Part shown: piece by piece, positions 5,563 through 48,680 of the stretch
How positions within the stretch are numbered: position 1 is the stretch's first letter
How the letters are laid out: every line of letters begins with the position of its first letter
Virus record (IMG/VR): IMGVR_UViG_3300028490_000012
Span: 1 to 48,680 of that record
Origin: a virus
Length of the DNA: 48,680 bases
Strand: one strand, 5' to 3'
Program-made: the position numbers and the translations under genes
Notes under the pieces: generated by a model
Databases searched by the model: none
Told to the model about the DNA's origin: nothing
Seen by the model: the letters and a program-made list of their open reading frames with translations, nothing else

Positions 5563-5567
5563 TCAAT

Positions 5568-5606: not shown

Positions 5607-5625
5607 AAAGTTTGAAAGGCTTAAA

Positions 5626-13048: not shown

Positions 13049-13066
13049 AAGTTTGAAAGGCTTAAA

Positions 13067-14030: not shown

Positions 14031-14046
14031 ACTAAAAAGGCTTAAT

Positions 14047-14313
14047 ATGTTATTACGAGAAAACCACCCAAGATTTCATGCTATGATTCAAGAGCATGGT
14101 ACTATGTCTGAAAAAATTGATTATTTTAATATATTGGTTTTACTTGATACGGCTTCAATTTTCAATGCACCATTAGTTTTGGCTAAGGAAATTGAAAGAT
14201 TGGAATTAAAGGGTATCGAAGATTTAGGAATTTATCAAGAAATATTCGGGTTAGTGGCAAGAGATAACTTTTGGTTCATTGACGAAACGTTTGAATTACC
14301 ATATTACATATAA
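14047..14313 (+). CDS. Hypothetical protein
   Basis: 88 aa helical protein with no recognised motif. The start follows AAAAAGGCTTAAT. First gene of an operon that ends with a CCA-adding-type enzyme and two small ORFs. Confidence 0.65.
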   Translation: MLLRENHPRFHAMIQEHGTMSEKIDYFNILVLLDTASIFNAPLVLAKEIERLELKGIEDLGIYQEIFGLVARDNFWFIDETFELPYYI

Positions 14314-14640: not shown

Positions 14641-15312
14641 ATGGAGAAAAAATTAGTAAAAATGTTTACCGACAATGTTGTTCTCCTAGAGGTCAGTATG
14701 ATTCTTCTATCTGTGACTGATGAATGTTACCTTGTTGGTGGTGCTGTAAGAAACGCACTTTACGGAAAAGAAGCTAAAGACTTTGACTTCACGGTTGGTA
14801 ACACGGGTTACGATAAACTGTCCGATGCGTTTGAACAAGCAGATTGGACAATCAAAGAAACGGGTAAAGAATTTCTTGTACTTATGGTAACTAAGGTTAT
14901 CAACGGTAAGAGAGAAGAATTCGAAATTGCAATGCTTAGAAAGGATGGGATGTATGTTAATGGTCGCAGACCAGAGGGTGTTGAAACGGGTACGCTTCTA
15001 GAAGATGCTATGCGTAGAGACTTCTCTATTAACAGCCTTTACTTCTGCCTTAAGACGGGAAAAGTAATTGACCCCACACGTAAAGGTATGCAAGACCTTA
15101 GAGACCGAGTATTGCGTTTTAACGGTAAGGCAAAAGAGCGAATGGAAGAAGATTATCTTAGAATGTACAGAGGTCTTAGATTTCTTCAACTTTTTAACCT
15201 TACTTGGGCACAAGGTACAGAAAGGGTTTTCAATAGAATGTTCCTAGAACATAGTCAAAAGGTGAACCCACAAAGGGTTCTTAACGAGCTAAATAAAATG
15301 GCGAGGGGTTAA
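14641..15312 (+). CDS. cca: CCA-adding / poly(A) polymerase-type nucleotidyltransferase
   Basis: 223 aa, about half a full bacterial CCA enzyme. It has the class II head: YLVGGAVRNAL (GGxVRD-like) at ~33-43, AKDFDFTVG with the DxD metal pair, AMRRDFSINSLYF as the RRDF motif, then the neck with EDYLRMYRGLRF. The body and tail domains are missing. It could add or repair 3' CCA on phage tRNAs, several of which lack an encoded CCA in this window. The short length leaves open a specialised function. Confidence 0.85.
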   Translation: MEKKLVKMFTDNVVLLEVSMILLSVTDECYLVGGAVRNALYGKEAKDFDFTVGNTGYDKLSDAFEQADWTIKETGKEFLVLMVTKVINGKREEFEIAMLRKDGMYVNGRRPEGVETGTLLEDAMRRDFSINSLYFCLKTGKVIDPTRKGMQDLRDRVLRFNGKAKERMEEDYLRMYRGLRFLQLFNLTWAQGTERVFNRMFLEHSQKVNPQRVLNELNKMARG

Positions 15313-20476: not shown

Positions 20477-20953
20477 ATGATAAGAGAACTATTAGAAAAA
20501 TTATTCAGTAAGGGTGTTTATATGTCCCTGAAGCTCGTAAATGGCTCTGAAGCAACATTCAAGAAATACATTAAGGATAACGTGCCGGAACTTACTCCGA
20601 CGCCTGATCCTCATTTAACGCTCATTTACAGTAAGAAAAAGTTCGATGATGAAGTAATATTAACTAAGACCGAATATTCTGGTGTTGTTAAAGGCTTTGC
20701 AGTATTTGGTCAAGGTGATGATAGAGCATTAGTTGCTGAAATTGAATCAAGTGAAATAGTAGAAAGAAACAACATATTAGTTACGGAATATGGATTCATA
20801 TCTGATTTTGAAGAATATAAACCACATATCACATTAGCTTATGACATCCCCGAAGATTTTGATATAAACTCTCTCCCAGAATTCACACATCCCCTTACTT
20901 TCGGTGAAGAATCGATTTCAGAACTTGAACTTGATTGGGCTAAGAAGAATTAA
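20477..20953 (+). CDS. Tagged 2H phosphoesterase-like protein
   Basis: 158 aa starting MIRELLEKLFSKG, a diverged capsid tag. Two HxT motifs, HLTLIYS (~47) and HITLAYD (~115), sit at the spacing of the 2H phosphoesterase (LigT/CPDase) superfamily. Members hydrolyse 2',3'-cyclic phosphates or 2'-5' oligoadenylates, including anti-defence phosphodiesterases. A head-packaged 2H enzyme could destroy cyclic-nucleotide alarm signals on entry; that role is inferred. Confidence 0.75.
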   Translation: MIRELLEKLFSKGVYMSLKLVNGSEATFKKYIKDNVPELTPTPDPHLTLIYSKKKFDDEVILTKTEYSGVVKGFAVFGQGDDRALVAEIESSEIVERNNILVTEYGFISDFEEYKPHITLAYDIPEDFDINSLPEFTHPLTFGEESISELELDWAKKN

Positions 20954-25524: not shown

Positions 25525-25599
25525 TGACTAATAAGTACTGTGAAAGTCACCATTTAATTGGTAAGTTTAAATTTTAAAAAGTTTTAAAAGACCTTAGAA

Positions 25600-25640
25600 T
25601 TTTAAGCTAACTTTAAGGTACATTTAGCTATAATATAAAA
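25600..25640 (+). promoter_or_regulatory. Phage promoter, second of tandem pair
   Basis: TTTTAAGCTAACTTTAAGG precedes GCTATAAT (-10 at 25629-25634), the same core as the promoter at 25484. It drives a leader ORF and the tRNA array. Confidence 0.8.
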
Positions 25641-25710
25641 ATAAAATAAGAAACGGTTAAAAAGTGACTTTGGTCATTAAATAACTGTAATAAAACAAAA
25701 GGAGACTGTA

Positions 25711-28642: not shown

Positions 28643-28667
28643 AAAATAAAAAGAGAAAAAACCTGAG

Positions 28668-28711
28668 TTTAAGCTTGTTTTAAGCGAAGTTACGGTATAA
28701 TAGAGTATATT
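28668..28711 (+). promoter_or_regulatory. Phage promoter within tRNA array
   Basis: TTTAAGCTTGTTTTAAGC precedes GGTATAATAGAGTATA (-10 at 28696-28701). It drives the short ORF and tRNAs that follow. Confidence 0.78.
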
Positions 28712-28732
28712 AAAAGTTAGAAAGGCTATTAT

Positions 28733-28849
28733 ATGAGAATCAAAAAACCAGGAAACCCAAACGCTAAATGTTCGTATAAGAACGGAAAAGTATATAACAG
28801 AAAGAATGTATAATCACTCAAACGGTGATTTAAGACGGAAGAGGTAGTT
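28733..28849 (+). CDS. Short basic leader ORF
   Basis: 38 aa beginning MRIKKPGNPNAKCSYKNG, with GAAAGGCTATTAT upstream. Its last codons run into the cloverleaf RNA at 28840, so translating ribosomes would occupy that RNA's 5' end. This matches the pattern of promoter, short ORF and stable RNA seen elsewhere here. Confidence 0.5.
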
Positions 28850-38117: not shown

Positions 38118-38683
38118 TAAGAGAAATTATAGAATCTCAAAATAAAGTAATTTACCATGGGACACCAACTAAAAACATAAGTTCTATTAGAAGGGAAGGA
38201 TTTCGGTATTCTCGTAAAAATGTTTTAAGAAATCTCAATTATTCAGAGAATAGATTCTACTTTTTTTATAGAAAGTCTAGAACTGAAGCTATGATAGCAC
38301 AATTTATTCTAGATAGAGACAAATCCTATGACCCTTCAATAAAATTAATAGATACATATACAGAATCTCCGGATAACATGGAAGAAATAGAGGGAATATC
38401 TTCTACCATAAGGGATTGGAAATATTTTGAGATTGAAGACAGAAAACAAATCATTAAAAAATTCAATAATGTTAAAGAAACAGATTACTCTATAATTGAA
38501 TTGGATTTTAAATTAATGGAAAAAGAAGCAGTCTTTGATAAAGTGAATGGTGTTGATTTTGGTGACGGTCTTTTTATTACTCAGAGAAATTCTGAAAATA
38601 TAAGTGCCAAATATATATTGAAAATTGAGAAATTCAATTATAAAAAATTCATAAAAGATACTTTCAAATTAAATGCAAAATAA
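38114..38683 (+). CDS. Tagged ADP-ribosyltransferase-like protein
   Basis: 189 aa starting MIREIIESQ. KVIYHGTPTKNISSIRREGF at residues ~10-29 is the HGT...I...GF signature of PARP/ART and RNA 2'-phosphotransferase-like folds, followed by a YFFYRKSRTEAMIAQF helix. DFGDGLFIT near the C-terminus fits a late catalytic-loop strand. This is the clearest ART-like member of the packaged set. Confidence 0.68.
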   Translation: MIREIIESQNKVIYHGTPTKNISSIRREGFRYSRKNVLRNLNYSENRFYFFYRKSRTEAMIAQFILDRDKSYDPSIKLIDTYTESPDNMEEIEGISSTIRDWKYFEIEDRKQIIKKFNNVKETDYSIIELDFKLMEKEAVFDKVNGVDFGDGLFITQRNSENISAKYILKIEKFNYKKFIKDTFKLNAK

Positions 38684-38724
38684 GTAATTTAAGTTTATTT
38701 TAAGCTTTTTACCCTATAATTCAA
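38683..38724 (+). promoter_or_regulatory. Phage promoter
   Basis: TTTAAGTTTATTTTAAGC precedes CCTATAAT (-10 at 38715-38720). A leader ORF follows. Confidence 0.77.
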
Positions 38725-38784
38725 CTAATAACAAATTACAGCATTAAATAACTGTAATAAATAAAAACAAAAAAGGAACTAGAC

Positions 38785-38847
38785 ATGTTGTCACTGATAC
38801 TATTATCATCAATAAATTTATCCTCGCTCTCGAGTATAAATATCTAA
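38785..38847 (+). CDS. Short hydrophobic leader ORF
   Basis: 20 codons (MLSLILLSSINLSSLSSINI) after AAAAAGGAACTAGAC. Serine, leucine and isoleucine only, besides Met and Asn. It follows the same GCATTAAATAACTGTAATAAA element found before other leader ORFs. Hairpins (AGTCC/GGACT; TTTCAG/CTGAAA) come next, then another promoter. Confidence 0.5.
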   Translation: MLSLILLSSINLSSLSSINI

Positions 38848-38943
38848 GTCCCCTCTTCTTTCAGGTTGGGTGGACTTTAAGCACACCGATCTGAAAATAT
38901 TCAAATAAATCAAAATATTTTCCAAAATTTTATCTTTTTAACG

Positions 38944-38985
38944 TAATTTAAGCAAGGTTTAAGCTAACTTACGGTATAATAGAGT
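38944..38985 (+). promoter_or_regulatory. Phage promoter of cloverleaf RNA 39028
   Basis: TTTAAGCAAGGTTTAAGC precedes GGTATAATAGAGTATA (-10 at 38975-38980). Confidence 0.8.
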
Positions 38986-39027
38986 ATATAAGTTGTAAGA
39001 CTTATAAGTTCTTAAAAATTCAAAAAT

Positions 39028-39113
39028 GAGTCTCGAATGATTATCTCCAAAAGAGTTAGTCGGACGTGGTGTCCCCAAAAGGGAATGAGGTTCAACTCCT
39101 CCGAGACCCACCA
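39028..39113 (+). ncRNA. Non-canonical cloverleaf RNA ending in CCA
   Basis: GAGTCTC pairs GAGACCC, then ACCA. The 3' arm GAGG-TTCAACT-CCTC is a true T-arm. Upstream are GATTATCTC-CAAAA-GAGTTAGTC, GGAC-GTGGT-GTCC and CCC-AAAA-GGG hairpins instead of D and anticodon arms. It has its own promoter. A tRNA acceptor/T-half on a foreign body. Confidence 0.6.
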
Positions 39114-39148
39114 AAAAGTTTTAAACTTTTATAAATTATATCAAAAAA

Positions 39149-39188
39149 ATTAAGCTGACTTTAAGCATAATTACGGTATAATATATAA
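39149..39188 (+). promoter_or_regulatory. Phage promoter of the TTAA-stem RNA region
   Basis: TTAAGCTGACTTTAAGC precedes GGTATAATATATAA (-10 at 39177-39182). Drives the structured region 39223-40300. Confidence 0.8.
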
Positions 39189-39222
39189 AGGCTTAGTCCT
39201 TTAGTTATTTAAAATTTCATTG

Positions 39223-39320
39223 TTAATTTCAAAATATTCAGACGATTATGAATAAAGAGATGATACTGGACTCCCAAATCCAGAAAGTAGCTCACTCGTA
39301 TCTGAATATTTTGAAGTTAA
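39223..39320 (+). ncRNA. TTAA-stem RNA, copy 1
   Basis: TTAATTTCAAAATATTCAGA pairs TCTGAATATTTTGAAGTTAA over about 20 bases, closing 58 bases. These contain CTGGA-CTCCCAAA-TCCAG, an anticodon-like arm with an eight-base loop (Trp-like with one extra C). Two more RNAs downstream share the distal ten pairs. Confidence 0.65.
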
Positions 39321-39555
39321 TTAAACATAGTGAGCGATGTTAGTGATAGAGCCTTTTGGTGGATTGTACATAAACCAAGAGGGAATCGTCGCGATGGCTG
39401 TAGAGCCATAAGTTTAGGTGCAATTCCTAAAAATTAATCTTCAACTGCTAAACAAAGAACGCTTAAATTTACGCAGTATAAATAATTATGAAGCCACGTG
39501 GGAGTTAGGGTCCACAAAGTCGAGAGGGGTCAATGACTAAGAACGGACTTTCACA

Positions 39556-39662
39556 TTAATTTCAAAATATACTCAAACCAGAGAATTAATTACTCTTTGG
39601 TGTCCTTGGTTGGCAATACTAGATAAAGGGGTTCGAATCCTCAGAGTATATCTTGAAGTTAA
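39556..39662 (+). ncRNA. TTAA-stem RNA, copy 2
   Basis: TTAATTTCAA and TATACTC pair with GAGTATA and TTGAAGTTAA. The interior has CCAGAG/CTTTGG and a T-arm GGGG-TTCGAAT-CCTC placed just before the 3' stem, so the inner stem doubles as an acceptor-like stem. Confidence 0.6.
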
Positions 39663-39669
39663 TTCTTTT

Positions 39670-39748
39670 ATATTGGTGTAGTGGTTACACGTCTGAAGTC
39701 TGCTAGCGACCTCTCAGAAAACCTCTGTTCGATTCAGGGATATAAATG
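39670..39748 (+). ncRNA. tRNA-like RNA with enlarged anticodon arm
   Basis: TTTATAT pairs ATATAAA, D-arm GTGT-AGTGGTT-ACAC, T-loop TTCGATT. The central arm is TCTGA/TCAGA with an inner GTC/GAC and a loop containing CTGCTAG, which could hold a Ser GCT anticodon. No CCA is encoded. Confidence 0.5.
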
Positions 39749-39872
39749 GAACTTTAGTGTAGGGAACTGACACTTAAAATTAAATTGCCAAAAAGTGGTT
39801 CGAATCCCACCTTTAGAATGTAATATTTCGGTAGGTAAAGATTGACAAATCTTGATGGACAAAATTGTCGAC

Positions 39873-39975
39873 TTAATTTCAATAAGTGTTTATGAAGGCA
39901 TAGTGAAAGATTGCAATCGTTCTTTGGGTACATGACCAGAGAAACTATGCCACCATAAACACTTATTGAAGTTAA
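39873..39975 (+). ncRNA. TTAA-stem RNA, copy 3, with acceptor-like inner stem
   Basis: TTAATTTCAATAAGTGTTTATG pairs with the mirror sequence ending TTGAAGTTAA, about 23 pairs. After a two-by-two internal loop, GGCATAG pairs CTATGCC followed by ACCA, like a tRNA acceptor end inside the stem. The apical part has CTTTGG/CCAGAG and no T-loop. Confidence 0.62.
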
Positions 39976-40305
39976 TTCAGAAGAATTAGTAAGTACCCTC
40001 AGATGTGCGTAGAGCACGTCTTGAGGTGACACTTCACAGTTATCGCTCTAAGAATTTAATAAAATTTTTAAAGGGGTGACTTGATATCCCATCCGTGAGC
40101 TTCGGCAAATAAAAAGATATCAAAAATCTTAACTGTGGTGGTTGAGTAGGTTATAGAAATTTACGCCTTAAGAATAATCAAGATTAAAGCTGAGTATAAT
40201 GTGAACTTCCTCAGTCCTCGGTTCATTAGGTGAAATGGACCTCTTTGGTAATGATAATATACAAATCAACATATTTATCAGAGGATTAACCACCCTCGAT
40301 TCTGT

Positions 40306-40381
40306 TCGGATATAGTTCAGTTGGTAGAACGCATGACTGTTAATCATGATGTCGGAGGTTCGAGTCCTTCTATCCGAGCCA
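40306..40381 (+). tRNA. tRNA-Asn(GTT)
   Basis: TCGGATA/TATCCGA acceptor, anticodon arm CATGA-CTGTTAA-TCATG, G73, CCA encoded. Confidence 0.95.
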
Positions 40382-40382
40382 A

Positions 40383-40416
40383 AGTTTAAATTAAGTTTAA
40401 AAGGTTATAATACCTT
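40383..40416 (+). promoter_or_regulatory. Phage promoter
   Basis: TTTAAATTAAGTTTAA precedes GTTATAAT (-10 at 40406-40411). The start would fall at the outer stem of the next RNA. Confidence 0.68.
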
Positions 40417-40421
40417 CTAAT

Positions 40422-40556
40422 TAGTTTCAAAGAGTATAAAGTATGACTAAATTGGTAAGTCAGGTGACGTGCACGGTTCGATTCCGTCTTGTTAAGCTTG
40501 TTGGGAGCTGTTGCCTTTGATGTCGGTTCGATTCCGACCTTTATGTTCTTTGAAGC
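40422..40556 (+). ncRNA. Nested tRNA-like RNA with two T-arms
   Basis: TTTCAAAGA...TATAAAG pairs CTTTATG...TCTTTGAAG. Read from TATAAAG it is a tRNA: D-arm GACT-AAATTGGTA-AGTC, T-arm GTCGG-TTCGATT-CCGAC and acceptor CTTTATG. The anticodon arm is replaced by AGGTGACG/TGTTGCCT holding a second T-arm, ACGG-TTCGATT-CCGT. So one tRNA 3' part lies inside another tRNA body. Confidence 0.55.
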
Positions 40557-40692
40557 CAATTTCGGTTGAGCTTCATTTAGTTGAATGTATATGGGTCGCA
40601 CCCAACTTCGAAAGAAGCTATAAACATTCCGTCCCTCAACGAGACGAAGACTTGGGGTTGTTTGGTAGTTCAACAATAAAAAACTACCACCA
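40557..40692 (+). other. Hairpin-rich spacer
   Basis: GAAGC/GCTTC, GGGTCGCACCC, GAATGT/ACATTC and GGTAGTT-CAACAATAAA-AACTACC hairpins follow each other. No gene seen. Confidence 0.3.
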
Positions 40693-40693
40693 T

Positions 40694-40787
40694 GGAGAGT
40701 TGTCCGAGTCAGGCTTATGGTGCTAGACTTGAAATCTAGTGAGGTGTGTCAAAAGCATCTCCGAGGGTTCGAATCCCTCACTCTCCT
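40694..40787 (+). tRNA. tRNA-Ser(TGA), no encoded CCA
   Basis: GGAGAGT/ACTCTCC acceptor, anticodon arm CTAGA-CTTGAAA-TCTAG, long variable arm, T-loop TTCGAAT. The 3' end reads TGCT instead of CCA, so it depends on a CCA-adding enzyme. Confidence 0.9.
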
Positions 40788-40895
40788 GCTCTATATTTAA
40801 CTTGCCTTCACGTGGCATAGAGTGTAAGTACCGAAAGGGAAACTAAAAGTTGAAAGAGGGATGCGAACTAATTAAATAACTTCAAGGAGTTATTT

Positions 40896-41558
40896 ATGTT
40901 CTATTATATTTACAAGATTACAAATACCATAAATGGTAAGATTTATGTTGGTGTTCATAAAACCAAAGATTTAGAAGACGGATATATGGGTTCTGGGAAA
41001 GTCCTAAATCGTGCGATTAAAAAGTACGGCTTAGAAAACTTCAAAAAGGAAATCATTCAAAAGTTTGATAATTCTGAGGATATGTTCAACGCTGAAATTC
41101 AACTCGTGAACGAGGAATTCGTTTCAAGAGAAGATACATATAATCTAAAAGTTGGTGGATATGGTGGTTTTGATTATATAAATGAACTTAGAAAAGATGA
41201 AGATTTTCTAGAAAAAGTAAAGAAATCTATTTCAGATGGTAAAAAATGTGGAATGGTTAGTAAAGGCTTCTCAGGAAAAACTCATTCAGAAGATACTAAA
41301 AAGAAAATGATTAGGACTAAAATAGCTAATCACGGAAGAGAAGTATTTGATACATTTTCTGGTAGGAAGCATTCAGAAGAAACAAAGGTAAAAATGTCAA
41401 AGGGTCAATATGGTAAACACGATGGTGAGAAAAATTCTCAATTCGGAACTATGTGGATTTACAACTTAGGAGAGAAACTAAGTAAAAAAATCAAAAAAGA
41501 TGAATTACCTTCTTATGAAAAGTTAGGTTGGCAGAAAGGTCGTAAAATCAAATTTTAG
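40896..41558 (+). CDS. GIY-YIG homing endonuclease
   Basis: 220 aa. YYIYKITNTINGKIYVGVH is a full GIY-YIG start, followed by GYMGSGKVLNRAIKKYG with the catalytic arginine helix. Two NUMOD-like SGKTHSEDTKKKM / SGRKHSEETKVKM repeats follow. The C-terminus has NSQFGTMWIYN, shared with the HNH protein at 45243. It sits between tRNA-Ser and tRNA-Met with AAGGAG upstream, a typical T4 Seg-like insertion site. Confidence 0.9.
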   Translation: MFYYIYKITNTINGKIYVGVHKTKDLEDGYMGSGKVLNRAIKKYGLENFKKEIIQKFDNSEDMFNAEIQLVNEEFVSREDTYNLKVGGYGGFDYINELRKDEDFLEKVKKSISDGKKCGMVSKGFSGKTHSEDTKKKMIRTKIANHGREVFDTFSGRKHSEETKVKMSKGQYGKHDGEKNSQFGTMWIYNLGEKLSKKIKKDELPSYEKLGWQKGRKIKF

Positions 41559-41631
41559 GGCGTGTGTCTTAATGGTAGAGAAACAAGCTCATAACTTGTC
41601 TGCGGAGGTTCGATTCCTCCCTCGCCCACCA
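41558..41631 (+). tRNA. tRNA-Met(CAT)
   Basis: GGGCGTG/CTCGCCC acceptor with one mismatch, anticodon arm ACAAG-CTCATAA-CTTGT, CCA encoded. Elongator Met or, if C34 is lysidinylated, Ile. Its first base is the last base of the endonuclease stop codon. Confidence 0.9.
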
Positions 41632-41669
41632 TGAAAAAGAAATTTAAAATTTGTTTAAAATTTGTTTAA

Positions 41670-41710
41670 AATTTAAGCAAACTTTAAGTGAAATTTAGTT
41701 ATAATAACGG
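41670..41710 (+). promoter_or_regulatory. Phage promoter of the large-RNA region
   Basis: TTTAAGCAAACTTTAAG precedes GTTATAAT (-10 at 41700-41705). It drives the hairpin, tRNA-like and structured RNAs up to about 43.8 kb. Confidence 0.75.
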
Positions 41711-41737
41711 TACTTAAAAATAAAACTTTAAAAAGTT

Positions 41738-41781
41738 TTTAAAGAGAGAAGAGAGCCTTTCAACAAGCTTCTCTCTTTAAA
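41738..41781 (+). ncRNA. Perfect 14-pair hairpin at transcript start
   Basis: TTTAAAGAGAGAAG and CTTCTCTCTTTAAA enclose a 16-base loop. No U-run follows. The next bases (AAAGACTTTCAAG) can pair with CTTGTCAAGTCTTT near 42115, so the hairpin may cap the 5' end of a long structured transcript. Confidence 0.5.
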
Positions 41782-41836
41782 GACTTTCAAGTGGTTTAGC
41801 TGACTACTTGGTCTTAGTTTAGAAAGAGTATCTCCT

Positions 41837-41908
41837 GACGGTATGGTGTAATCGGTAACATATCTGGTGCGAAACTTGAATATGTAGGTTCGAGTCCTAC
41901 TGCGGTCG
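41837..41908 (+). tRNA. tRNA-like gene, anticodon unclear
   Basis: GACGGTA/TGCGGTC acceptor with one mismatch, D-arm GTGT-AATCGGTA-ACAT, T-arm GTAGG-TTCGAGT-CCTAC. The anticodon arm TCTGG-TGCGAAA-CTTGA is poorly paired; the anticodon could be GCG or CGA. No CCA is encoded. Confidence 0.6.
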
Positions 41909-41923
41909 CTTGAATGGAGAGAA

Positions 41924-41974
41924 ATGAAAAACGATGAACAAAAACTTCTGATTGCGCATGAAGAAGTTCAGTAA
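41924..41974 (+). CDS. Very short ORF (16 codons)
   Basis: MKNDEQKLLIAHEEVQ with GGAGAGAA upstream, between a tRNA-like gene and the structured RNA. It may be a leader peptide like others here; support is the ribosome site only. Confidence 0.35.
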   Translation: MKNDEQKLLIAHEEVQ

Positions 41975-42079
41975 ATCGGAACGAATGGATAATGGTAAAT
42001 GCTGGTTGCGGGAGCAACATAAGCGATCACCCAATTTGGAAGCTTCAGTAGCTGGTTGCTTCCTAAGAACTTTTTAATG

Positions 42080-42660
42080 AATACATAGATTGATTGTTTA
42101 AAAAACTTGTCAAGTCTTTCAAAATGTGTATTCTTTAAAGGGTTCTCACTTTAGTCAATATAAAACGGTCAGGTGTTAAAGCCAGAACGAGAATAAAGTT
42201 GGTGTTTAACGGTGAAACGACTCTTTCGGCTGTGTATGGTCGTTAAGATAGTCTTGGCAACAAGGTGAAAGGTGCGGTGGAACGTATCGGGTTGGCTTCT
42301 TCGGGAGTTGGTCAGTAAGTACGCAAAATAGACGACTAACGTGTCATGCGTAAAGACTTCATCAAGGTGGAGTTCAAAATGAACGTCGGAGTACGAAAAA
42401 AGGCAGATGGGTAACACTGATGACAGCCTGATTCTCGCAAGGAATCTAGTACACGCAAAATTCGGAAGAATAGAAAAGTCGAATCTGTAGTTCTTTTGTC
42501 CAAGTGGTAACACACGAGGGCTTGAGTTCAGTTTTTAGAGAAAAAGGTCGTTGGGCTGAGTATCTTTAATAATGGTGAAAGTAGTCTGTTAGACAAAATC
42601 ACAAGAGGTGGGAAGCATCTCGTAGGGCAAAACCTTACGGAACTTCTGAAGGAGCCCATC
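42080..42660 (+). ncRNA. Large structured RNA candidate, part 1
   Basis: About 580 bases without a convincing ORF but with many stable elements: GTTCT/AGAAC, TTAACG/CGTTAA, CTTC-TTCG-GGAG, GATTC-TC-GCAA-GG-AATC, CGTAGG-GCAAAA-CCTTACG. Base composition is richer in G than the coding DNA. Phage tRNA arrays are known sites of giant ornate RNAs such as GOLLD and ROOL; I cannot confirm membership. Confidence 0.5.
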
Positions 42661-42665
42661 TCTCC

Positions 42666-42739
42666 AATCTATTAGCTTAATGGTAGAGCATTTGAATTTT
42701 TAATCAAACGGTTGAGGGTTTCAATACCCTCATAGAAAC
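42666..42739 (+). tRNA. Degenerate tRNA-Lys(TTT)-like gene
   Basis: TAGCTTAATGGTAGAGC D-arm is canonical. The anticodon arm TTTGA-ATTTTTAA-TCAAA has an eight-base loop, the T-loop is also eight bases (GAGGG-TTTCAATA-CCCTC), the acceptor pairs only at TCTAT/ATAGA, and no CCA is encoded. Confidence 0.55.
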
Positions 42740-42744
42740 TAAAA

Positions 42745-43440
42745 CGCAAAGACTCCTTCACTGACACTTGAAAGTGGCTTAAGACCTCCCCGCAATGTGG
42801 GAATGAGGTTTGTGGAAACTCGCAAGGTGGAAACAATTTAAAGGAAAGCAAGGTTTTCTCGCAAGGATTAACTGCTCGCAAGGCAGAACTAAATGGAACT
42901 TTAGAGTAGAGTGTCAGGATGCAAGAAATGCTACTTGTTGGCGAAAGCCTAAACAAAAGCAGTCACGGTTGATACGAACAGAAATGGTCGTGGATAAATT
43001 CGGGAACCAAATAATCCGGACAAAGGCAATCACTAGAGGGAATAATCTCATCCCGATAAAAGTAAATCTTAGGATTTATTCAAAGATGAAAGTAGAAGTT
43101 TCAGCGTCTGGACGTGTTTTCAGGTAAGACTTCTATTATGCACGCACTGGCTGAAAGTGTAGGACGGATCAACTCCGACTTCTTTGAATAAGTTCTTTGA
43201 ACTTGAATATTGAACGAAATAAATCGCAAATGTACCTGACGGGGGAGCTAACGCAAGACACGGTCAGGCTAAGTCGGAATAGATCTCACAGAAGTCGCTC
43301 TTCTATTGAGTCCTTACGAAGCATTCTTAGAGCTAACTATGTGCATCTATGGTTAGTGCTCACGTTATTTGTTTCGTTCAGTATTTACTAACTGAAGATA
43401 CTAATATCTCAAAATTAGTAGTGAACAATGGGCGAGTAAA
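42745..43440 (+). ncRNA. Large structured RNA candidate, part 2
   Basis: About 700 bases with CACT-TGAA-AGTG, CCTC..GAGG, CTGC-TC-GCAA-G-GCAG, GGC-GAAA-GCC, GGGA-ATAATCTCA-TCCC and TAAATC-TTAG-GATTTA hairpins. The motif CTCGCAAGG occurs three times here and once in part 1. Open frames across it have unnatural composition for this genome. Together with part 1 it may be one very long RNA. Confidence 0.5.
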
Positions 43441-43539
43441 GTCTACCTAAAATTCTACTTAATGGATTGTAAATCAAACTTAGTGGAAGGCGTTGTATCC
43501 TTCTGCGAACTTCCGAGGGTATATAACCTCGGAAATGTG

Positions 43540-43615
43540 TAGCTGGTGGTGGGTAGGTATCCAAGGGAGTCTCATAAGCTCCATCAACATAGTTCAATTC
43601 TATGACGAGCAACCA
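43540..43615 (+). tRNA. tRNA-Met(CAT)-like with unmatched acceptor
   Basis: Anticodon arm GGAGT-CTCATAA-GCTCC, T-arm CATAG-TTCAATT-CTATG and 3' ACGAGCA-A-CCA are normal. The bases upstream of the D region do not pair with ACGAGCA, and a strong TCCGAGG/CCTCGGA hairpin sits there. Degenerate or dependent on another RNA for its 5' strand. Confidence 0.5.
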
Positions 43616-43622
43616 AAAACGA

Positions 43623-43697
43623 TGCGGGGTAGAAGATTGGTAATTCGTTGGGCTCATAACCCAAAGTATGGTGGTTCGATTCCATCCCCCGCAACCA
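43623..43697 (+). tRNA. tRNA-Met(CAT)
   Basis: TGCGGGG/CCCCGCA perfect acceptor, anticodon arm TTGGG-CTCATAA-CCCAA, T-loop TTCGATT, CCA encoded. The first pair is T-A rather than the initiator C-A mismatch. Confidence 0.92.
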
Positions 43698-43703
43698 AAT
43701 TAT

Positions 43704-43828
43704 GCCTTTGTAGCTCAGTGGTTAGAGCAGTCCCCCGTTGTGTGGATGTTAGTGCAAGTTGATGAATCGGTTGCAAACGATTTTGATATAATTCTTGTGG
43801 CGTTGGTTCGAATCCAACCTCAGGCACA
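43704..43828 (+). ncRNA. Expanded tRNA-like RNA, possibly Cys
   Basis: D-arm GCTC-AGTGGTTA-GAGC and T-arm GTTGG-TTCGAAT-CCAAC are normal, and GCCT/AGGC can pair at the ends. Between D-arm and an AATCG-(G)TTGCAAA-CGATT arm (anticodon GCA) lie about 34 extra bases, and about 20 more precede the T-arm. The 3' end is ACA. An insertion or intron-like element is likely. Confidence 0.5.
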
Positions 43829-43831
43829 TTA

Positions 43832-43878
43832 GATCAATACTAAGAATATAATGTATCCTTAATATTGGTCTTTTTATG
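43832..43878 (+). terminator. Intrinsic terminator
   Basis: AGATCAATA-C-TAAG pairs CTTA-A-TATTGGTCT with G-U pairs and is followed by TTTTT. Ends the transcript of the large structured RNAs. Confidence 0.75.
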
Positions 43879-43879
43879 T

Positions 43880-44500
43880 AGTATTTTAAGTCCGTGGGTC
43901 AAATTAGAACATATGATAACTAATTTGGATGATGACACTAAGAATTATAAAATCTACACTTGAACAATCGATGTCGGAATATCGAGTTGAATACCTCAGT
44001 AATTAGGGTAATATCCGTCTCTAGGAAAATGTCAATAAGTTCAGGCTATATCAATAAGATTTCTAAGAAGTTTTATTGCTGTAGCTAATCGTTAAGTCTG
44101 TCAGAGACTAGATTAATAAGGTGGTTTGAGGTATCTGAATAGTCCAAAACCCAAAGAAAATGGTACCAAATTCGTTGCAGTACGAAAAATAAATATCGCT
44201 GGTGTGTGAAACAAAACATGGACTCTCTGATTTGAGTCGGGAAAGCCTAAAACTTTCCGCAGTGGCCAAAATATGATCTGATGTGATATCATCATCGGTT
44301 GAACACCGAGTTAGGTCGCCAATACTTTTGAAGTGCTATCTTAGGATGGTTCTTTGAAGGCATTCAAAAAGTAACGAAAATGGAACACCTCGATGGAGTG
44401 AGGTATTAGTGGAAGGGGCGTGCACGCCACGGAAGACATTAAGTTGTGTATTTTATAAAGCGTCAAGATAAATATTCCTCTGGTAGGTAGCTTTATAATC
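43880..44500 (+). other. Structured non-coding stretch
   Basis: No ORF or full tRNA. Hairpins include GACTC/GAGTC, GGAAAG-CCTAAAA-CTTTCC, TCGG-TTGAACA-CCGA (Phe-like anticodon arm), ACCTC/GAGGT and GGCGTGCACGCC. It lies after a terminator with no promoter I recognise, and precedes tRNA-Leu(TAA). Confidence 0.35.
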
Positions 44501-44503
44501 TGT

Positions 44504-44581
44504 GCGTCCATAGTGCAATCGGTAGGAGACAAGGGACTTAAAATCCCAACAGTGTGGGTTCGAGTCCCACTGGACGTACCA
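44504..44581 (+). tRNA. tRNA-Leu(TAA)
   Basis: GCGTCCA/TGGACGT acceptor, anticodon loop CTTAAAA, T-arm GTGGG-TTCGAGT-CCCAC, CCA encoded. Variable region is short for a Leu tRNA. Confidence 0.88.
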
Positions 44582-44593
44582 AATAAAATTCAT

Positions 44594-44668
44594 GCGTCTG
44601 TAGCCCAGAGGTGAGGCAATTGGTTTAGAACCATAAATCTGAGGGTTCGAATCCCTCCAGGCGTACCA
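44594..44668 (+). tRNA. tRNA-Leu(TAG) with weak anticodon stem
   Basis: GCGTCTG/CAGGCGT acceptor, loop TTTAGAA, T-arm GAGGG-TTCGAAT-CCCTC, CCA encoded. The anticodon stem ATTGG/CCATA has only three pairs. Confidence 0.82.
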
Positions 44669-44682
44669 CGAAAGAAGAAAAA

Positions 44683-44946
44683 ATGAAAGATACAAAAGAA
44701 AGAAAACAAGGTAAATATTCTGAGGAATATTCTAAGATTGTGAACGGTGTAAAAGTTCAAATCAAGGAAGAAACTATTGTCGGAAGAGATTTCGAAATTA
44801 TGAGTTTCTCAAGAGATTATAACCCAGCAGTCCCAAGTTCCACTAATATTTTTATGGAAAGTGGTGTAACAATTGAATGGAATGAAATTATCAGAGATAA
44901 TGCCAAAAACATTATTGATAGAATCCCTCATTCAAAAACATTCTAG
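44683..44946 (+). CDS. Small hypothetical protein in tRNA array
   Basis: 87 aa with AAGAAGAAAAA upstream. Lysine/glutamate-rich N-terminus, then GRDFEIMSFSRDYNPAVP. No family recognised. Short gene wedged between two tRNA-Leu genes. Confidence 0.65.
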   Translation: MKDTKERKQGKYSEEYSKIVNGVKVQIKEETIVGRDFEIMSFSRDYNPAVPSSTNIFMESGVTIEWNEIIRDNAKNIIDRIPHSKTF

Positions 44947-44957
44947 ACGAAGAATGT

Positions 44958-45033
44958 GCGTAGGTGATCCAAAGGTAGAGGTGCTAGATTCAAAATCTAG
45001 ATGTTGAGGGTTCGATCCCCTCTCTACGCACCA
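44958..45033 (+). tRNA. tRNA-Leu(CAA)
   Basis: GCGTAGG/TCTACGC acceptor, anticodon arm CTAGA-TTCAAAA-TCTAG, T-arm GAGGG-TTCGATC-CCCTC, CCA encoded. Confidence 0.9.
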
Positions 45034-45051
45034 TGAAATTAACAAAATGAT

Positions 45052-45129
45052 GCACGTGTAGTCCAATCGGCAGGAGACGCTTGGCTAAGAACCAAGACAG
45101 TGGAGGTTCGAATCCTCTCACGTGTACCA
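45052..45129 (+). tRNA. tRNA-Leu(AAG)
   Basis: GCACGTG/CACGTGT acceptor, anticodon arm CTTGG-CTAAGAA-CCAAG, T-loop TTCGAAT, CCA encoded. An A at position 34 of a Leu tRNA is unusual in bacteria, where GAG normally reads CUU. Confidence 0.88.
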
Positions 45130-45137
45130 AAAATTTT

Positions 45138-45214
45138 GGAAAGTTCCCATAATGGTATTGGAGCTGGTTGCTAACCAGTCGGGTGTAAAAGCCTTCGGGG
45201 TTCTAGGAACTTAG
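45138..45214 (+). pseudogene. Truncated or altered tRNA-Ser(GCT)
   Basis: GGAAAGT, D-arm with TAATGG, and anticodon arm CTGG-TTGCTAA-CCAG match the intact Ser(GCT) at 45984. The sequence breaks off in the T-arm at GGGGTTC, followed by TAGGAACTTAG and the homing endonuclease gene. No CCA. AAGTTCC/GGAACTT can still close the RNA. Confidence 0.65.
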
Positions 45215-45242
45215 TAATTAAATAACTTCATAAGGAGTTATT

Positions 45243-45992
45243 ATGAATTACAAAAAAGTTTACGATCAAATTATAGAAAAAAGACAGAAAGACCCAATTA
45301 ATGAGGGTTATTCAGAAAAACATCATATTCTTCCAAGAAGTTTAGGTGGTTCTGATAACCCTGACAATTTGGTCAGATTATCTGCTCGTGAACATTTCAT
45401 TTGTCATTATTTGCTTGCAAAGATGTACGAAAGAGAAACTAACGAGTGGTATAGAATGAACCATGCTTTTATGATGATGAAATCCGAAAGTGTGTTTAAT
45501 TCTAGATATTTCAATTCCAGATTATATGAGGCACTGAAAGGTGACTTTTCTTCTGTTATGAGTTTTGCTCAAAAAGGAAAGAAAAATTCACAATACGGGA
45601 CTTGCTGGATTTGTAATTTGGATAATCAAGTTAAGAAAATTCCAAATGAAGATTTAGTGATTTGGTTGAACAAAGGTTGGATCAAGGGACGTACTATACC
45701 GAAACCATCAATTTTGAAGGATGTGAGAAAAATAATCCGTAAAAATGATACTCTTGCCAAACGAGAAAAAATTAGAAAAGATAAAAAAGAAGAACTAGAA
45801 AAACAAAACATTGAAATGGTGAATGAAAATGTTAAGATTTATTCTGAACATTTCATAATATATGAAAAGTATGGATTTAAAAAATTCGTAGAAATTACGG
45901 GTTATGAATTCTCTCTTGAAAATTTAGTATCTCAATTTTCGAAATATGTTCAGGAATTTGTTCCGCAAAGTAGGATAAAAAGGGGAAAATGA
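45243..45992 (+). CDS. HNH homing endonuclease
   Basis: 249 aa. SEKHHILPRSLGGSDNPDNLVRLSAREHFICHYLL is a complete HNH core (HH, N, H). Around residue 115 NSQYGTCWICN and the following WLNKGWIKGR repeat the C-terminal motif of the GIY-YIG protein at 40896. The rest is basic and helical, for DNA binding. It lies between a broken and an intact tRNA-Ser(GCT), suggesting that the insertion duplicated or replaced tRNA sequence. Its stop overlaps the intact tRNA. Confidence 0.88.
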   Translation: MNYKKVYDQIIEKRQKDPINEGYSEKHHILPRSLGGSDNPDNLVRLSAREHFICHYLLAKMYERETNEWYRMNHAFMMMKSESVFNSRYFNSRLYEALKGDFSSVMSFAQKGKKNSQYGTCWICNLDNQVKKIPNEDLVIWLNKGWIKGRTIPKPSILKDVRKIIRKNDTLAKREKIRKDKKEELEKQNIEMVNENVKIYSEHFIIYEKYGFKKFVEITGYEFSLENLVSQFSKYVQEFVPQSRIKRGK

Positions 45993-46070
45993 TCTAAGAT
46001 GGTTCTTAGGCTCGGTTGCTAACTGAAGGGTGTCGAAAGGCATGGGGTTCAATTCCTCCGTTTTCCGCCA
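45984..46070 (+). tRNA. tRNA-Ser(GCT)
   Basis: GGAAAAT/GTTTTCC acceptor, loop TTGCTAA, long variable arm, T-loop TTCAATT, G73 and CCA as expected for Ser. Starts inside the end of the endonuclease gene. Confidence 0.88.
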
Positions 46071-46076
46071 AAATTT

Positions 46077-46164
46077 GGAAGATTGACAGAACGGTAATGT
46101 GCCTCCTTGGAAAGGAGAGTCTGGTTAATAGCCTGAGTGGGTTCAACTCCCATGTCTTCCGCCA
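46077..46164 (+). tRNA. tRNA-Ser(GGA)
   Basis: GGAAGAT/GTCTTCC acceptor, anticodon arm CCTCC-TTGGAAA-GGAGA, long variable arm, G73 and CCA. Confidence 0.93.
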
Positions 46165-46197
46165 AACATAAAATTATAAAAATAAAAAGGTTACAAA

Positions 46198-46524
46198 ATG
46201 AGAAAAGAATTTGATAGAATTGCTAGAGAGTATTTCGGTAAGAGTGTAGATTTAGATAAACTATTTCAGACATTTAAGACTTCACAAAATTGGGACAGAT
46301 TACATCCAGTTGAAGACAAATCTAAAGAAAGAAAATCGAATGAAACTGTTGGTTTCTTTGAATCATTATTTGATTCGGTTAAGTATAACCCAAAACCATC
46401 AAAAAAGTTCTATGAATTGAAAAATCCAGTGAACCAAGATAACACGGAAGGATATATAGCGTTCTTAAAGAGAATGTTATCTCTATCTAAAGACGAAAAT
46501 TATAAACATTTAAACTTTATTTAA
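46198..46524 (+). CDS. Hypothetical protein
   Basis: 108 aa, start after AAAAAGGTTACAAA. Basic and polar, with EYFGKSVDLDKLFQTFK and a C-terminal LKRMLSLSKDENYK. No family recognised. Last gene before the Lys tRNA promoter. Confidence 0.7.
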   Translation: MRKEFDRIAREYFGKSVDLDKLFQTFKTSQNWDRLHPVEDKSKERKSNETVGFFESLFDSVKYNPKPSKKFYELKNPVNQDNTEGYIAFLKRMLSLSKDENYKHLNFI

Positions 46525-46535
46525 AAAAGTTTGAA

Positions 46536-46576
46536 CTTTAAGCTAACTTTAAGTAACATTTAGCTATAATAGACGT
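46536..46576 (+). promoter_or_regulatory. Phage promoter of tRNA-Lys group
   Basis: TTTAAGCTAACTTTAAG precedes GCTATAAT (-10 at 46565-46570), the same core as the promoters at 25484 and 25600. Confidence 0.8.
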
Positions 46577-46636
46577 ATAAATAAAAAGTTAAGTATTAAA
46601 TAACTTCACTTAAACATTAAAATAAAAGGATAACTT

Positions 46637-46669
46637 ATGAAACACGCGAAAATCATAGGTGCTCGTTAG
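46637..46669 (+). CDS. Ten-codon leader ORF
   Basis: MKHAKIIGAR after AAAAGGATAACTT, again behind an ATTAAATAACTTCA element. Followed by a hairpin that reaches into tRNA-Lys. Fits the pattern of short translated leaders before tRNA groups. Confidence 0.45.
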   Translation: MKHAKIIGAR

Positions 46670-46688
46670 ACTTACATTTGGGTCTACT

Positions 46689-46746
46689 GGAGCATCTTCA
46701 ACAAATAAACAAATCAAATGATTAAAATTTATTTTGAAGATGCTCC
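46689..46746 (+). promoter_or_regulatory. Leader hairpin sequestering tRNA-Lys 5' end
   Basis: GGAGCATCTTCAA (46689-46701) is perfectly complementary to TTGAAGATGCTCC (46734-46746), whose last five bases are the start of the tRNA-Lys acceptor stem. The 13-pair hairpin and the tRNA fold exclude each other. Confidence 0.6.
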
Positions 46747-46818
46747 TTTAGTTCAACGGTTTAGAATACGGGGCTTTTAACCTTGGGATGACGGGTTCGA
46801 TTCCCTCAGGGAGCACCA
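46742..46818 (+). tRNA. tRNA-Lys(TTT)
   Basis: GCTCCTT/AGGGAGC acceptor, loop CTTTTAA, T-loop TTCGATT, CCA encoded. Confidence 0.9.
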
Positions 46819-46830
46819 TTCATAATATTT

Positions 46831-46905
46831 GCACTTGAAGCTTAATTGGCGAAGCACTGGACTCTTAATCCAGGGAACAAGGTTCGATTCCTTGCGGGTG
46901 TACCA
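46831..46905 (+). tRNA. tRNA-Lys(CTT)
   Basis: GCACTTG/CGGGTGT acceptor, anticodon arm CTGGA-CTCTTAA-TCCAG, T-loop TTCGATT, CCA encoded. Confidence 0.93.
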
Positions 46906-46912
46906 ATATTTT

Positions 46913-46988
46913 GGGTCGGTAGCTCAATCGGTAGAGCATTCCACTTTTAATGGAAGGGCAGACGGATCGTAACCGTCTCGACTCACCA
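46913..46988 (+). tRNA. tRNA-Lys(TTT) with altered T-loop
   Basis: GGGTCGG/TCGACTC acceptor, anticodon arm TTCCA-CTTTTAA-TGGAA, CCA encoded. T-arm GACGG-ATCGTAA-CCGTC has A54 and T58 instead of T54 and A58. Confidence 0.9.
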
Positions 46989-47005
46989 AATAACAATAAT
47001 CAGTG

Positions 47006-47042
47006 CCTTAAGTTTACTTTAAGGTTAATCTAGTATAATTCA
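47006..47042 (+). promoter_or_regulatory. Phage promoter of Y-RNA array
   Basis: CTTAAGTTTACTTTAAGG precedes AGTATAAT (-10 at 47034-47039). The expected start lies just at the outer stem of the first Y-like RNA. Confidence 0.75.
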
Positions 47043-47049
47043 ATATAAA

Positions 47050-47156
47050 TTCAATAAAGTAAGAATCACAGTATAAGATTACATCAATAAGTTCATCTCC
47101 TAGAGATTACCCTATTTTCAAAACATCTTATACGATTTCATCTTGTTTTATTGAGT
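47050..47156 (+). ncRNA. Candidate Y RNA 1
   Basis: The outer stem TCAATAAAGTAAG pairs CTTGTTTTATTGA. Then comes an internal loop of AATCACA opposite GATTTCAT, an inner stem GTATAAGA/TCTTATAC, and TTACATC. All five other copies share this plan. The head is a simple hairpin ATCTC-CTA-GAGAT. The placement just before a Ro60 gene identifies the two-helix stem as the likely Ro-binding part. Confidence 0.75.
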
Positions 47157-47157
47157 T

Positions 47158-47268
47158 TACTGTGAAAACAAATAATAAATGCACAAACAAGTGACGGTTG
47201 TTGACACAAGCTGAATATGGGGATGGACCTATTTCACTGTATCCTAGTCAATTTGTTTTCGCAGTGAA
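47158..47268 (+). ncRNA. Long-stem spacer RNA
   Basis: ACTGTGAAAACAAAT pairs ATTTGTTTTCGCAGT with one mismatch, closing about 80 bases. It lacks the conserved ATYACA and TTTCA loop elements, so it is not counted as a Y RNA. It may help separate copies 1 and 2 during processing. Confidence 0.45.
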
Positions 47269-47424
47269 CTCAATAAAGTAAGAATTACAGTATAAGATTA
47301 CATCACAAACGGGTTGTCGTGGGTTCGAGTCCCACACCCTCTCTTCGGGAGGGTTAGTTCAGCTGGTAGAACACCCGTCTCAAATTAACATCTTATACGA
47401 TTTCATCTTGTTTTATTGAGTTTA
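47267..47424 (+). ncRNA. Candidate Y RNA 2 with permuted tRNA module
   Basis: Same stem as Y RNA 1 (GTATAAGA/TCTTATAC inner helix, AATTACA/GATTTCAT loop). The head is a circularly permuted tRNA: 3' anticodon-stem ACGGG, T-arm GTGGG-TTCGAGT-CCCAC, acceptor ACCCTCT closed by CTTCG to GGAGGGT, TA, D-arm GTTC-AGCTGGTA-GAAC, and CCCGT, which pairs with ACGGG. The acceptor end is sealed, so it cannot be charged. This matches the tRNA-mimic modules of bacterial Y RNAs. Confidence 0.85.
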
Positions 47425-47514
47425 TAGAAGATAGGGTCTAACTCCCGTTGCCACTTAAGTGGTACTTACGTGTTGTAAGTGCATTTTCTCTTAAGAAGGT
47501 TTCATAAACTCAAC
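47413..47514 (+). ncRNA. Alternative hairpin downstream of Y RNA 2
   Basis: TTGAGTTTAT, the 3' strand of the Y RNA 2 outer stem, is also perfectly complementary to ATAAACTCAA at 47505-47514. Between lie CCACTTAAGTGG and ACTTAC-GTGTT-GTAAGT hairpins. The two folds compete, which could control release of Y RNA 2. Confidence 0.45.
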
Positions 47515-47519
47515 TTAAT

Positions 47520-47556
47520 CCTTAAGTTTAAATTAAGGTTACTAAGTTATAATACA
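47520..47556 (+). promoter_or_regulatory. Phage promoter of second Y-RNA group
   Basis: CTTAAGTTTAAATTAAGG precedes GTTATAAT (-10 at 47548-47553). Start expected just at the outer stem of Y RNA 3. Confidence 0.72.
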
Positions 47557-47564
47557 GTTATAAG

Positions 47565-47651
47565 TTCATAAAAGAAAGAATTACAGTTTAAGATTACATC
47601 GCATTTTGAAGCTAACACTACATCTTCGACGCTTTCATCTTTCTTTTATGA
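47565..47651 (+). ncRNA. Candidate Y RNA 3 (short)
   Basis: Outer stem CATAAAAGAAAG/CTTTCTTTTATG, loop AATTACA opposite GCTTTCAT, inner strand GTTTAAGA with TCTTCGAC, then TTACATCGCA. The head is tiny, with no tRNA-like part. About 87 bases, near the size of minimal Y RNAs. Confidence 0.72.
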
Positions 47652-47672
47652 GCGTATGCTCTTGTTCTTTAA

Positions 47673-47984
47673 AAATTTGTATTGAGAATCACAGTAATAG
47701 ATTACATCGCATATAAATAATATGATATGGTAAATGTGTTCCGATCTTCATTAATGATAACGATTTTGGGTGACTCCCAACGACCCGAATAAGTAGGGTT
47801 GTCCTCTTAAAAATAAAAAACGTCTATTTGATCGATGCGAGGTTTACGCCTTTGACCATCCCAAATATAAAGTAATTAATGCCTATGTTCTTGGTGACAG
47901 AACTCGGTTCCTAGTGGTAATACACGGGGCTAGAAATAACGGGTGAATTCCCACTTCTATTATGTATTCATCTCGGTACAAATT
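47673..47984 (+). ncRNA. Candidate Y RNA 4 (long head)
   Basis: Outer stem AATTTGTATTGAGA/TCTCGGTACAAATT, loop ATCACA opposite ATTCA, inner AATAGA/TCTATT, then TTACATCGCA. The head is about 250 bases and includes GGG-TGACT-CCC and CAACGACCC-GAATAAGTA-GGGTTG. Much larger than known Y RNA heads; it may carry a separate effector domain. Confidence 0.65.
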
Positions 47985-47990
47985 CAATTC

Positions 47991-48119
47991 CTATTGTTAT
48001 GTGAAATTACAAAATAAGATTACATCGTATTTTTTGAATAAACACAAGTTCGGGTTCGATTCCCGATATTGAAGCTGGTTGCCTATTTTCATCTTATTTG
48101 CCTTCATTCACATAACAAT
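47991..48119 (+). ncRNA. Candidate Y RNA 5 with T-arm
   Basis: Outer stem ATTGTTATGTGAA/TTCACATAACAAT perfect, loop ATTACA opposite GCCTTCA, inner AAATAAGAT/ATCTTATTT perfect, then TACATCGTA. The head has a canonical T-arm TCGGG-TTCGATT-CCCGA but no complete acceptor or D-arm: a partial tRNA mimic. Confidence 0.75.
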
Positions 48120-48133
48120 GGGTTTTTGAAATT

Positions 48134-48290
48134 ATTGTTAAACAAAAATCACAGTGAGAAATTACATCGCATTGAAAGCACGTTGTCGAAGGTTCAATTC
48201 CTTCTCTTCCCACCATTTAAAATATGGGAAGATAGCTCAGTTGGTAGAGCACGTTTAAAACTTTCTCACGCTTTCATTTTGTTTAACAAT
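48134..48290 (+). ncRNA. Candidate Y RNA 6 with permuted tRNA carrying ACCA
   Basis: Outer stem ATTGTTAAACAAAA/TTTTGTTTAACAAT, loop ATCACA opposite GCTTTCA, inner GTGAGAAA/TTTCTCAC, then TTACATCGCA. The head is a permuted tRNA: T-arm GAAGG-TTCAATT-CCTTC, acceptor TCTTCCC, then ACCATTTAAAATAT, GGGAAGA, TA, D-arm GCTC-AGTTGGTA-GAGC and CGT pairing ACG. The retained ACCA shows descent from a real tRNA and could become a 3' end if the loop is cut. Confidence 0.85.
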
Positions 48291-48363
48291 AACTTCAATC
48301 CCAGTGACCTACAATGAGGTGACGATTCGTCTAATAAAGTAATTAGAACTAAAGGATATTACA

Positions 48364-48680
48364 ATGGGAAAATTCAATAAAACTACAAAGGGTGTAAACT
48401 CTACACCAGACACTACAAACGTTGCAGGATTCGCTGCTTTTTCAAGAAATGACTTTAAAATGGATGTGGCTTCAGTTGTTCTGAACACAATGCTTAACGG
48501 TAATAACTTCTATGAATCAGAAGCTGAAAGAATTAAGAGAATTGAAGGTTTCGTTGCAGATAATACTGAAAATGGTGAATTCTTGGCTAAGGCTATGGTG
48601 TACACAAGAAATGAAGGTAACTTGAGATCTGTGTCACACTTGATGGGTACTCTATTAACTGAAAATGTTAAGGGTTCTAC
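48364..48680 (+). CDS. rsr: Ro60/Rsr-like TROVE-domain protein, 3' end outside window
   Basis: The first ~105 codons are visible; start after AAAGGATATTACA. NVAGFAAFSRNDFKMDVAS, then LNTMLNGNNFYESEAERIKRIEGFV and FLAKAMVYTRNEGNLRSVSHLMGTLL match the N-terminal helical repeats of the TROVE module (Ro60, bacterial Rsr). Ro binds the stem of Y RNAs outside its ring and misfolded or degraded RNAs in the cavity. In bacteria it works with PNPase and helps rRNA and tRNA processing. The six stem RNAs directly upstream are its likely partners. Whether a von Willebrand A-like domain follows cannot be seen. Confidence 0.88.
   Translation, partial: MGKFNKTTKGVNSTPDTTNVAGFAAFSRNDFKMDVASVVLNTMLNGNNFYESEAERIKRIEGFVADNTENGEFLAKAMVYTRNEGNLRSVSHLMGTLLTENVKGS

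Follow-up and report, generated by a model that had tools for sequence, protein, structure and literature searches.

A GOLLD RNA in the tRNA array

The IMG/VR virus record IMGVR_UViG_3300028490_000012, analysed here over all of its 48,680 bases (the window), encodes a large non-coding RNA of the GOLLD family in a tRNA array, and a tRNA-like element in the linker of this RNA is the subject of the present study. GOLLD builds hollow RNA cages, which are among the largest known RNA-only structures, and is characterized by assembly into a 14-mer nanocage and by expression that rises during lysis. The Rfam covariance search placed GOLLD (RF02032; gathering cut-off, 150 bits) on the plus strand at 42603–43054, with 218.3 bits and an E value of 1.5e-60 over model positions 1–416, the full model; these coordinates delimit the conserved 3′ domain. 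The less conserved 5′ domain, a region of ~420 nt in the family, probably lies at 42150–42602 on the same strand, as judged by homology to two related loci (L035 and L059) and by covariation, with an uncertainty of ~90 nt at its 5′ end.

An earlier note on this DNA had taken 42080–43440 (1.36 kb) for a highly structured RNA that lies in the tRNA array and lacks a credible coding sequence, had suggested a novel class or a divergent relative of the GOLLD/ROOL type, and had asked for a covariance-model search. That search returned GOLLD above its cut-off, and none of the other large-RNA families in Rfam was matched in the region so delimited, which holds no long open reading frame (ORF). ROOL resembles the GOLLD described here in being a large cage RNA of phages that occurs close to tRNA islands and has a disordered linker in its interior (PMC12286853), but it gave no match at E values up to 1 in 38600–48680. 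Because the full model is matched at 218 bits, the region is a GOLLD member and not a new RNA class. The idea of a frameshifted protein gene, which the note itself had named as a possible refutation, and that of a new class retain practically no probability for 42603–43054, as both are refuted by the GOLLD match, the covariation and the lack of a long ORF. As for the proposed limits, ~0.9 kb of the region is GOLLD, and the last ~390 nt (43055–43440) is a different structured stretch.

The RNA shares with RF02032 the 416-position 3′ domain, the location in the tRNA array of a phage genome, and a linker at the same place, which appears in the model alignment as an insert that follows the first 3′ helix and precedes the next strand; a structured region upstream is the probable counterpart of the 5′ domain. 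Two IMG/VR contigs of a related phage (155 kb and 18 kb) carry GOLLD (224 bits) in the same arrangement with a DNA identity of 75% over 42353–43026 (74.9% from 42353 on for L035), and L059 is a third relative that can be aligned with the GOLLD region. No named phage matched the region at the DNA level. A three-way alignment extends GOLLD upstream, the relatives carrying the RNA to ~42150–42350, and RNAalifold on three sequences (the window, L035 and L059) predicted 176 pairs, 69 of which show a compensatory change. A weak profile match (E 1e-4) connects 42468–42610 with other GOLLD 5′ domains. Four CTCGCAAGG elements, already pointed out in the earlier note, are found at 42434, 42819, 42858 and 42875, compared with 0.11 expected in the whole window, and belong to GOLLD hairpins. 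In the structure of env-38 GOLLD, residues 1–420 form the 5′ domain and residues 421–833 form the 3′ domain, with a disordered linker (497–538) inside the cage (Kretsch 2025, PMC12286853); by this yardstick, GOLLD here would span ~42150–42190 to 43054, ~0.9 kb. The assignment to the family is ordinary in itself, and the interest lies in the tRNA mimic in the linker.

The tRNA-like element in the linker

The linker element, which is absent from the earlier note, lies at 42666–42739 on the plus strand and was matched by the Rfam tRNA model (RF00005; cut-off, 29 bits) with 38.9 bits at 42668–42736, while ARAGORN makes no tRNA call on it. The D, anticodon and T arms of the cloverleaf and the elbow residues are shared with tRNA. 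Unlike tRNA, the element has an acceptor of 5 bp (TCTAT/ATAGA) instead of 7 bp and no 3′ CCA, its anticodon arm (TTTGA-ATTTTTAA-TCAAA) has a loop of 8 nt instead of 7 nt, and its T loop is also 8 nt. In a relative, the same acceptor reads GTAAT/ATTAC, a compensated change. The linker also differs from that of env-38 in that a tRNA-like domain takes the place of a 42-nt disordered loop, and the locus differs from known GOLLD RNA by an extra structured element directly downstream. In Mycobacterium tRNA arrays, GOLLD has been described with an internal predicted pseudo-tRNA gene (PMC6582537), which is similar to the present case in that a tRNA-like sequence lies inside GOLLD within a tRNA cluster; in contrast to that predicted pseudo-tRNA, the element here is recurrent, covarying, acceptor-truncated and hypervariable across phages. 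No report of acceptor truncation or hypervariability of the linker was found in the literature, although earlier reports of linker variability may exist.

Linker elements across phage GOLLDs

Further GOLLDs were drawn from IMG/VR with three DNA patterns built on GOLLD motifs; among 59 stretches obtained in this way, two false positives (L051 and L054) were excluded. All 20 loci checked with Rfam showed GOLLD with a tRNA match inside over cut-off, some loci sharing one linker. ARAGORN detected a tRNA in the linker at 58 of 77 distinct GOLLD loci; when the loci are clustered at 85% flank identity, this holds for 36 of the 50 clusters. Among seven loci of named phages, six carry GOLLD over cut-off, and four of these six have a linker tRNA. 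Three of the four appear in annotations as ordinary tRNA genes: tRNA-Arg in both DSS3_MAL1 and MD18, and tRNA-Leu in Cp1R7A-A1.

As a reference for the linker elements (32 in the first set and 52 in the enlarged one), 468 other tRNAs that the same program called in these loci were used. All seven acceptor pairs are formed in 0/32 linker elements vs 395/468 free tRNAs (Fisher p 3e-24; 1/52 in the enlarged set), and CCA is present in 2/32 vs 377/468 (p 5e-18; 3/52 enlarged). An anticodon loop of a length other than 7 nt was found in 5/32 linker elements vs 5/468 free tRNAs (p 2e-4; 9/52 enlarged). When 54 elements are aligned, pairing reaches 96–97% in the D, anticodon and T helices, compared with 73.5% in the acceptor, where the loss falls in the outer three pairs. 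Two-sided changes occur at 20 of 21 pairs; pairing drops to 34–46% in slid controls, and the elbow residues are nearly invariant. The linker elements therefore keep the fold of a tRNA but not its chargeable end. Covariation by itself might be a legacy of tRNA ancestry, a point on which the comparison of closely related GOLLDs below bears. The presence of a Ser/Leu anticodon on a body with a short variable arm was considered as a sign of non-function but discarded, since short variable arms are also seen in many of the free phage Leu/Ser tRNAs in these loci.

Rapid change of the linker

The linker elements are hypervariable. Between GOLLDs whose flanks are at least 95% identical (mean 97%), identity falls to 59% in the anticodon stem, 63% in the anticodon loop, 66% in the D stem and 69–70% in the T stem. 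In L103 and L104, for example, the GOLLD flanks and four free tRNAs are each 98–100% identical, whereas the linker elements share 55–60% and have different anticodons, and the pairs L115/L112 and L121/L116 show the same pattern. L121 and L112 have seven identical free tRNAs, yet the anticodon loops of their linkers differ in length (7 vs 8 nt); in L070 and L069, the free tRNAs are 96–100% identical and the linkers 90%, with an anticodon change from TAT to TAG. Near-identical GOLLDs thus carry differing linkers, yet L118 and L083 share the same element within more divergent GOLLDs; the linker therefore changes both by exchange of the entire cassette and by local alteration of the anticodon arm. 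The mean best similarity of linker elements is 0.83 to other linkers vs 0.75 to free tRNAs, with exceptions in 8 of 52.

Downstream structured RNA, transcription unit and genome

The stretch at 43055–43440 following GOLLD is structured (z -3.4). On the plus strand, it contains an element at 43070–43200 with a long closing helix (16 bp) and three hairpins, which has no Rfam match but has a homologue in L059 (~3305–3175, minus strand); the closing helix and inner stems are kept by two-sided changes, and GTGAAAGT, CAGCG, TTATGNACGC and AGGACGG...TCCGAC are conserved. Folding predicts a second helix-closed domain at 43205–43385 (plus strand) with 19-nt arms that are 89% complementary, and the stretch at the same place in L035 is similarly structured (z -4.0) without sequence similarity. 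In an IMG/VR scan for the 43070–43200 element, the only real match beyond the window was that in L059; the other 15 contigs are apparently chance hits within coding regions. A scan of genome contigs gave 10 candidate matches. It is possible that 43070–43385 represents a small new RNA class.

For the local promoter that the earlier note had assigned to the region, the sequence TTGTCA-16-TATTCT at 42107–42134 is a match at chance level (8 sites found vs 5.5 expected). A better candidate, and the likely promoter, is TTTAAGCAAACTTTAAGTGAAATTTAGTTATAATA upstream at 41661–41706 (plus strand), a dispersed repeat with TATAATA, a type that recurs before other units in this phage and in a relative. Further intergenic copies of the repeat, apparently promoters (TTTAAGCTAACTTTAAG...TATAATA), are found at 5566–5650, 13008–13073, 13986–14049, 25599–25662, 28665–28746 and 38944–39017, and L035 carries such repeats as well. 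The terminator proposed at 43832 is plausible, since a hairpin at 43831–43871 is followed by TTTTT (43831–43877, plus strand; z -2.86). On account of this promoter type and the terminator hairpin, a tRNA-Ser, GOLLD, the extra element and two or three tRNAs are predicted to form, probably, a single transcript of ~2.2 kb. A long AT-rich hairpin marks the 5′ edge of the GOLLD region (42066–42146, plus strand), and a hairpin occupies the corresponding position in a relative. Downstream on the plus strand are two ARAGORN calls of tRNA-Met (43544–43697), the first of which (43544–43615) folds poorly, and a 123-nt tRNA with a long insertion (43704–43826; Rfam, 39.6 bits). The insertion sits in the anticodon/variable region and may represent an intron or an unusually long arm. 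An interpretation of 43445–43560 as a tRNA-Tyr with an insert was not supported.

ARAGORN identified 36 tRNAs in the window. A tRNA-Sec-like match at 45983–46067 (39.4 bits, under the cut-off of 47) adjoins a tRNA at 46077–46161 that ARAGORN missed, and further long ORF-free stretches of the array without Rfam matches (38690–40300 and 43880–44500) may hold structured RNAs. The encoded proteins include NrdA/NrdB and a DNA-ligase-type protein, and the nearest named relatives of one protein, with ~37% identity, are in Campylobacter and Vibrio phages; the phage is T4-like and distant kin of Campylobacter phages. An RNA-repair nucleotidyltransferase RlaP (10369–11421), a CCA/poly(A) polymerase head domain (14641–15312) and the anti-CBASS protein Acb1 (20477–20953) are also encoded. 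The segments 47060–48300 and 48364–48680 contain six Y-RNA-like stem repeats (ACAGTnTAAGATTACATC ... CATCTTATACGATTTCATCTT), two of them with a YrlA-type tRNA-mimic module (RF02553; 43.5 and 37.4 bits, under the cut-off of 69), and, downstream of the repeats, the start of a protein that is cut by the contig end and shows 51% identity to a TROVE/Ro60 protein of the related phage L059, so that the array, judged by sequence, appears to be that of a phage Ro60 with Y RNAs. RlaP and the Ro60/Y-RNA cluster show the investment of the phage in RNA integrity, with no proof of a link to the role of the linker.

Possible role of the linker element

Homology with the solved env-38 RNA predicts for the GOLLD of this phage a 5′ domain that forms a cap and a 3′ domain that forms a ring, the RNA assembling as a closed cage whose interior holds the linker; many copies of the linker element would be displayed there. 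The element retains the D, anticodon and T arms and the elbow on a short acceptor without CCA, and it is probably neither charged nor cut out as a tRNA because its acceptor is shortened and CCA is absent. RNase P and tRNase Z measure the acceptor/T stack, and loss of the outer acceptor pairs may hinder release by these enzymes, the element thus staying in the RNA. Its anticodon arm and body change or are swapped far faster than the cage itself. The reading that we favor with modest confidence is that of a tethered, fast-evolving tRNA mimic inside the cage, which probably serves as bait for a host factor that binds or cuts tRNAs; the likeliest role would be to attract or dock a factor that recognises tRNAs, with a host anticodon nuclease or tRNA-binding protein as candidates. 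More tentatively, and with less probability, phage GOLLD cages may carry hypervariable uncharged tRNA baits that are diversified or swapped between near-identical phages and evolve against tRNA-targeting factors of the host, for instance anticodon nucleases.

Several observations weigh against the bait reading. ARAGORN finds no tRNA in about one-quarter of the linkers, some of which contain only shorter hairpins, and two of the six named phages have none; the full tRNA shape is therefore not always needed. The anticodon loop has 7 nt in 43/52 linker elements, many anticodons are real ones, and some elements may still act as tRNAs. Moreover, the GOLLD sample was drawn by patterns, so the frequencies may be biased. 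The regular loops and the annotation of linker elements as tRNA-Arg or tRNA-Leu would also be expected if the element were a normal tRNA of the phage that is housed in GOLLD and freed by RNase P and tRNase Z, and the PolyA_pol/CCA-type head domain of the phage could add CCA. This is improbable, however, given that outer acceptor pairs and CCA are missing, unlike in neighboring tRNAs under the same tool, that anticodons ATG, ATT and ATC and 8-nt loops occur, and that the internal pseudo-tRNA of Mycobacterium GOLLD had no detectable expression of its own (PMC6582537).

Neutral decay and ribosome binding are serious rivals to the bait reading. If the linker were a neutral landing site, with tRNA genes inserting in a tolerant loop and decaying as pseudogenes, the short linkers with remnants (L053, L098, L109, L045 and L086) and the swapping of the element between near-identical GOLLDs would be accounted for. 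Against such decay, the three inner helices of 54 diverse sequences stay almost fully paired, with compensatory changes in large number, in contrast to the outer acceptor, and linkers are mostly closer to one another than to free tRNAs; we consider it unlikely, although by no means negligible. Alternatively, the tRNA shape may contact ribosomes or the host translation machinery, GOLLD sequestering or holding ribosomes late in infection. A GOLLD ribosome pull-down is cited by Kretsch 2025 (PMC12286853), and the kept parts are the elbow and the anticodon arm; nevertheless, ribosome contact does not by itself explain the fast change of the anticodon arm, and the solved cage had only the 42-nt disordered linker, which leaves this explanation with a low probability.

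Implications

As genome annotations list linker elements as real tRNA genes, such entries should be treated with caution. Should a fast-changing tRNA mimic prove to be a regular feature of the cage interior, the question of GOLLD function would narrow to what recognises the mimic. The linkers of the cultured phages DSS3_MAL1 and Phaeobacter phage MD18 have the same form, and the question would therefore be testable in these phages.
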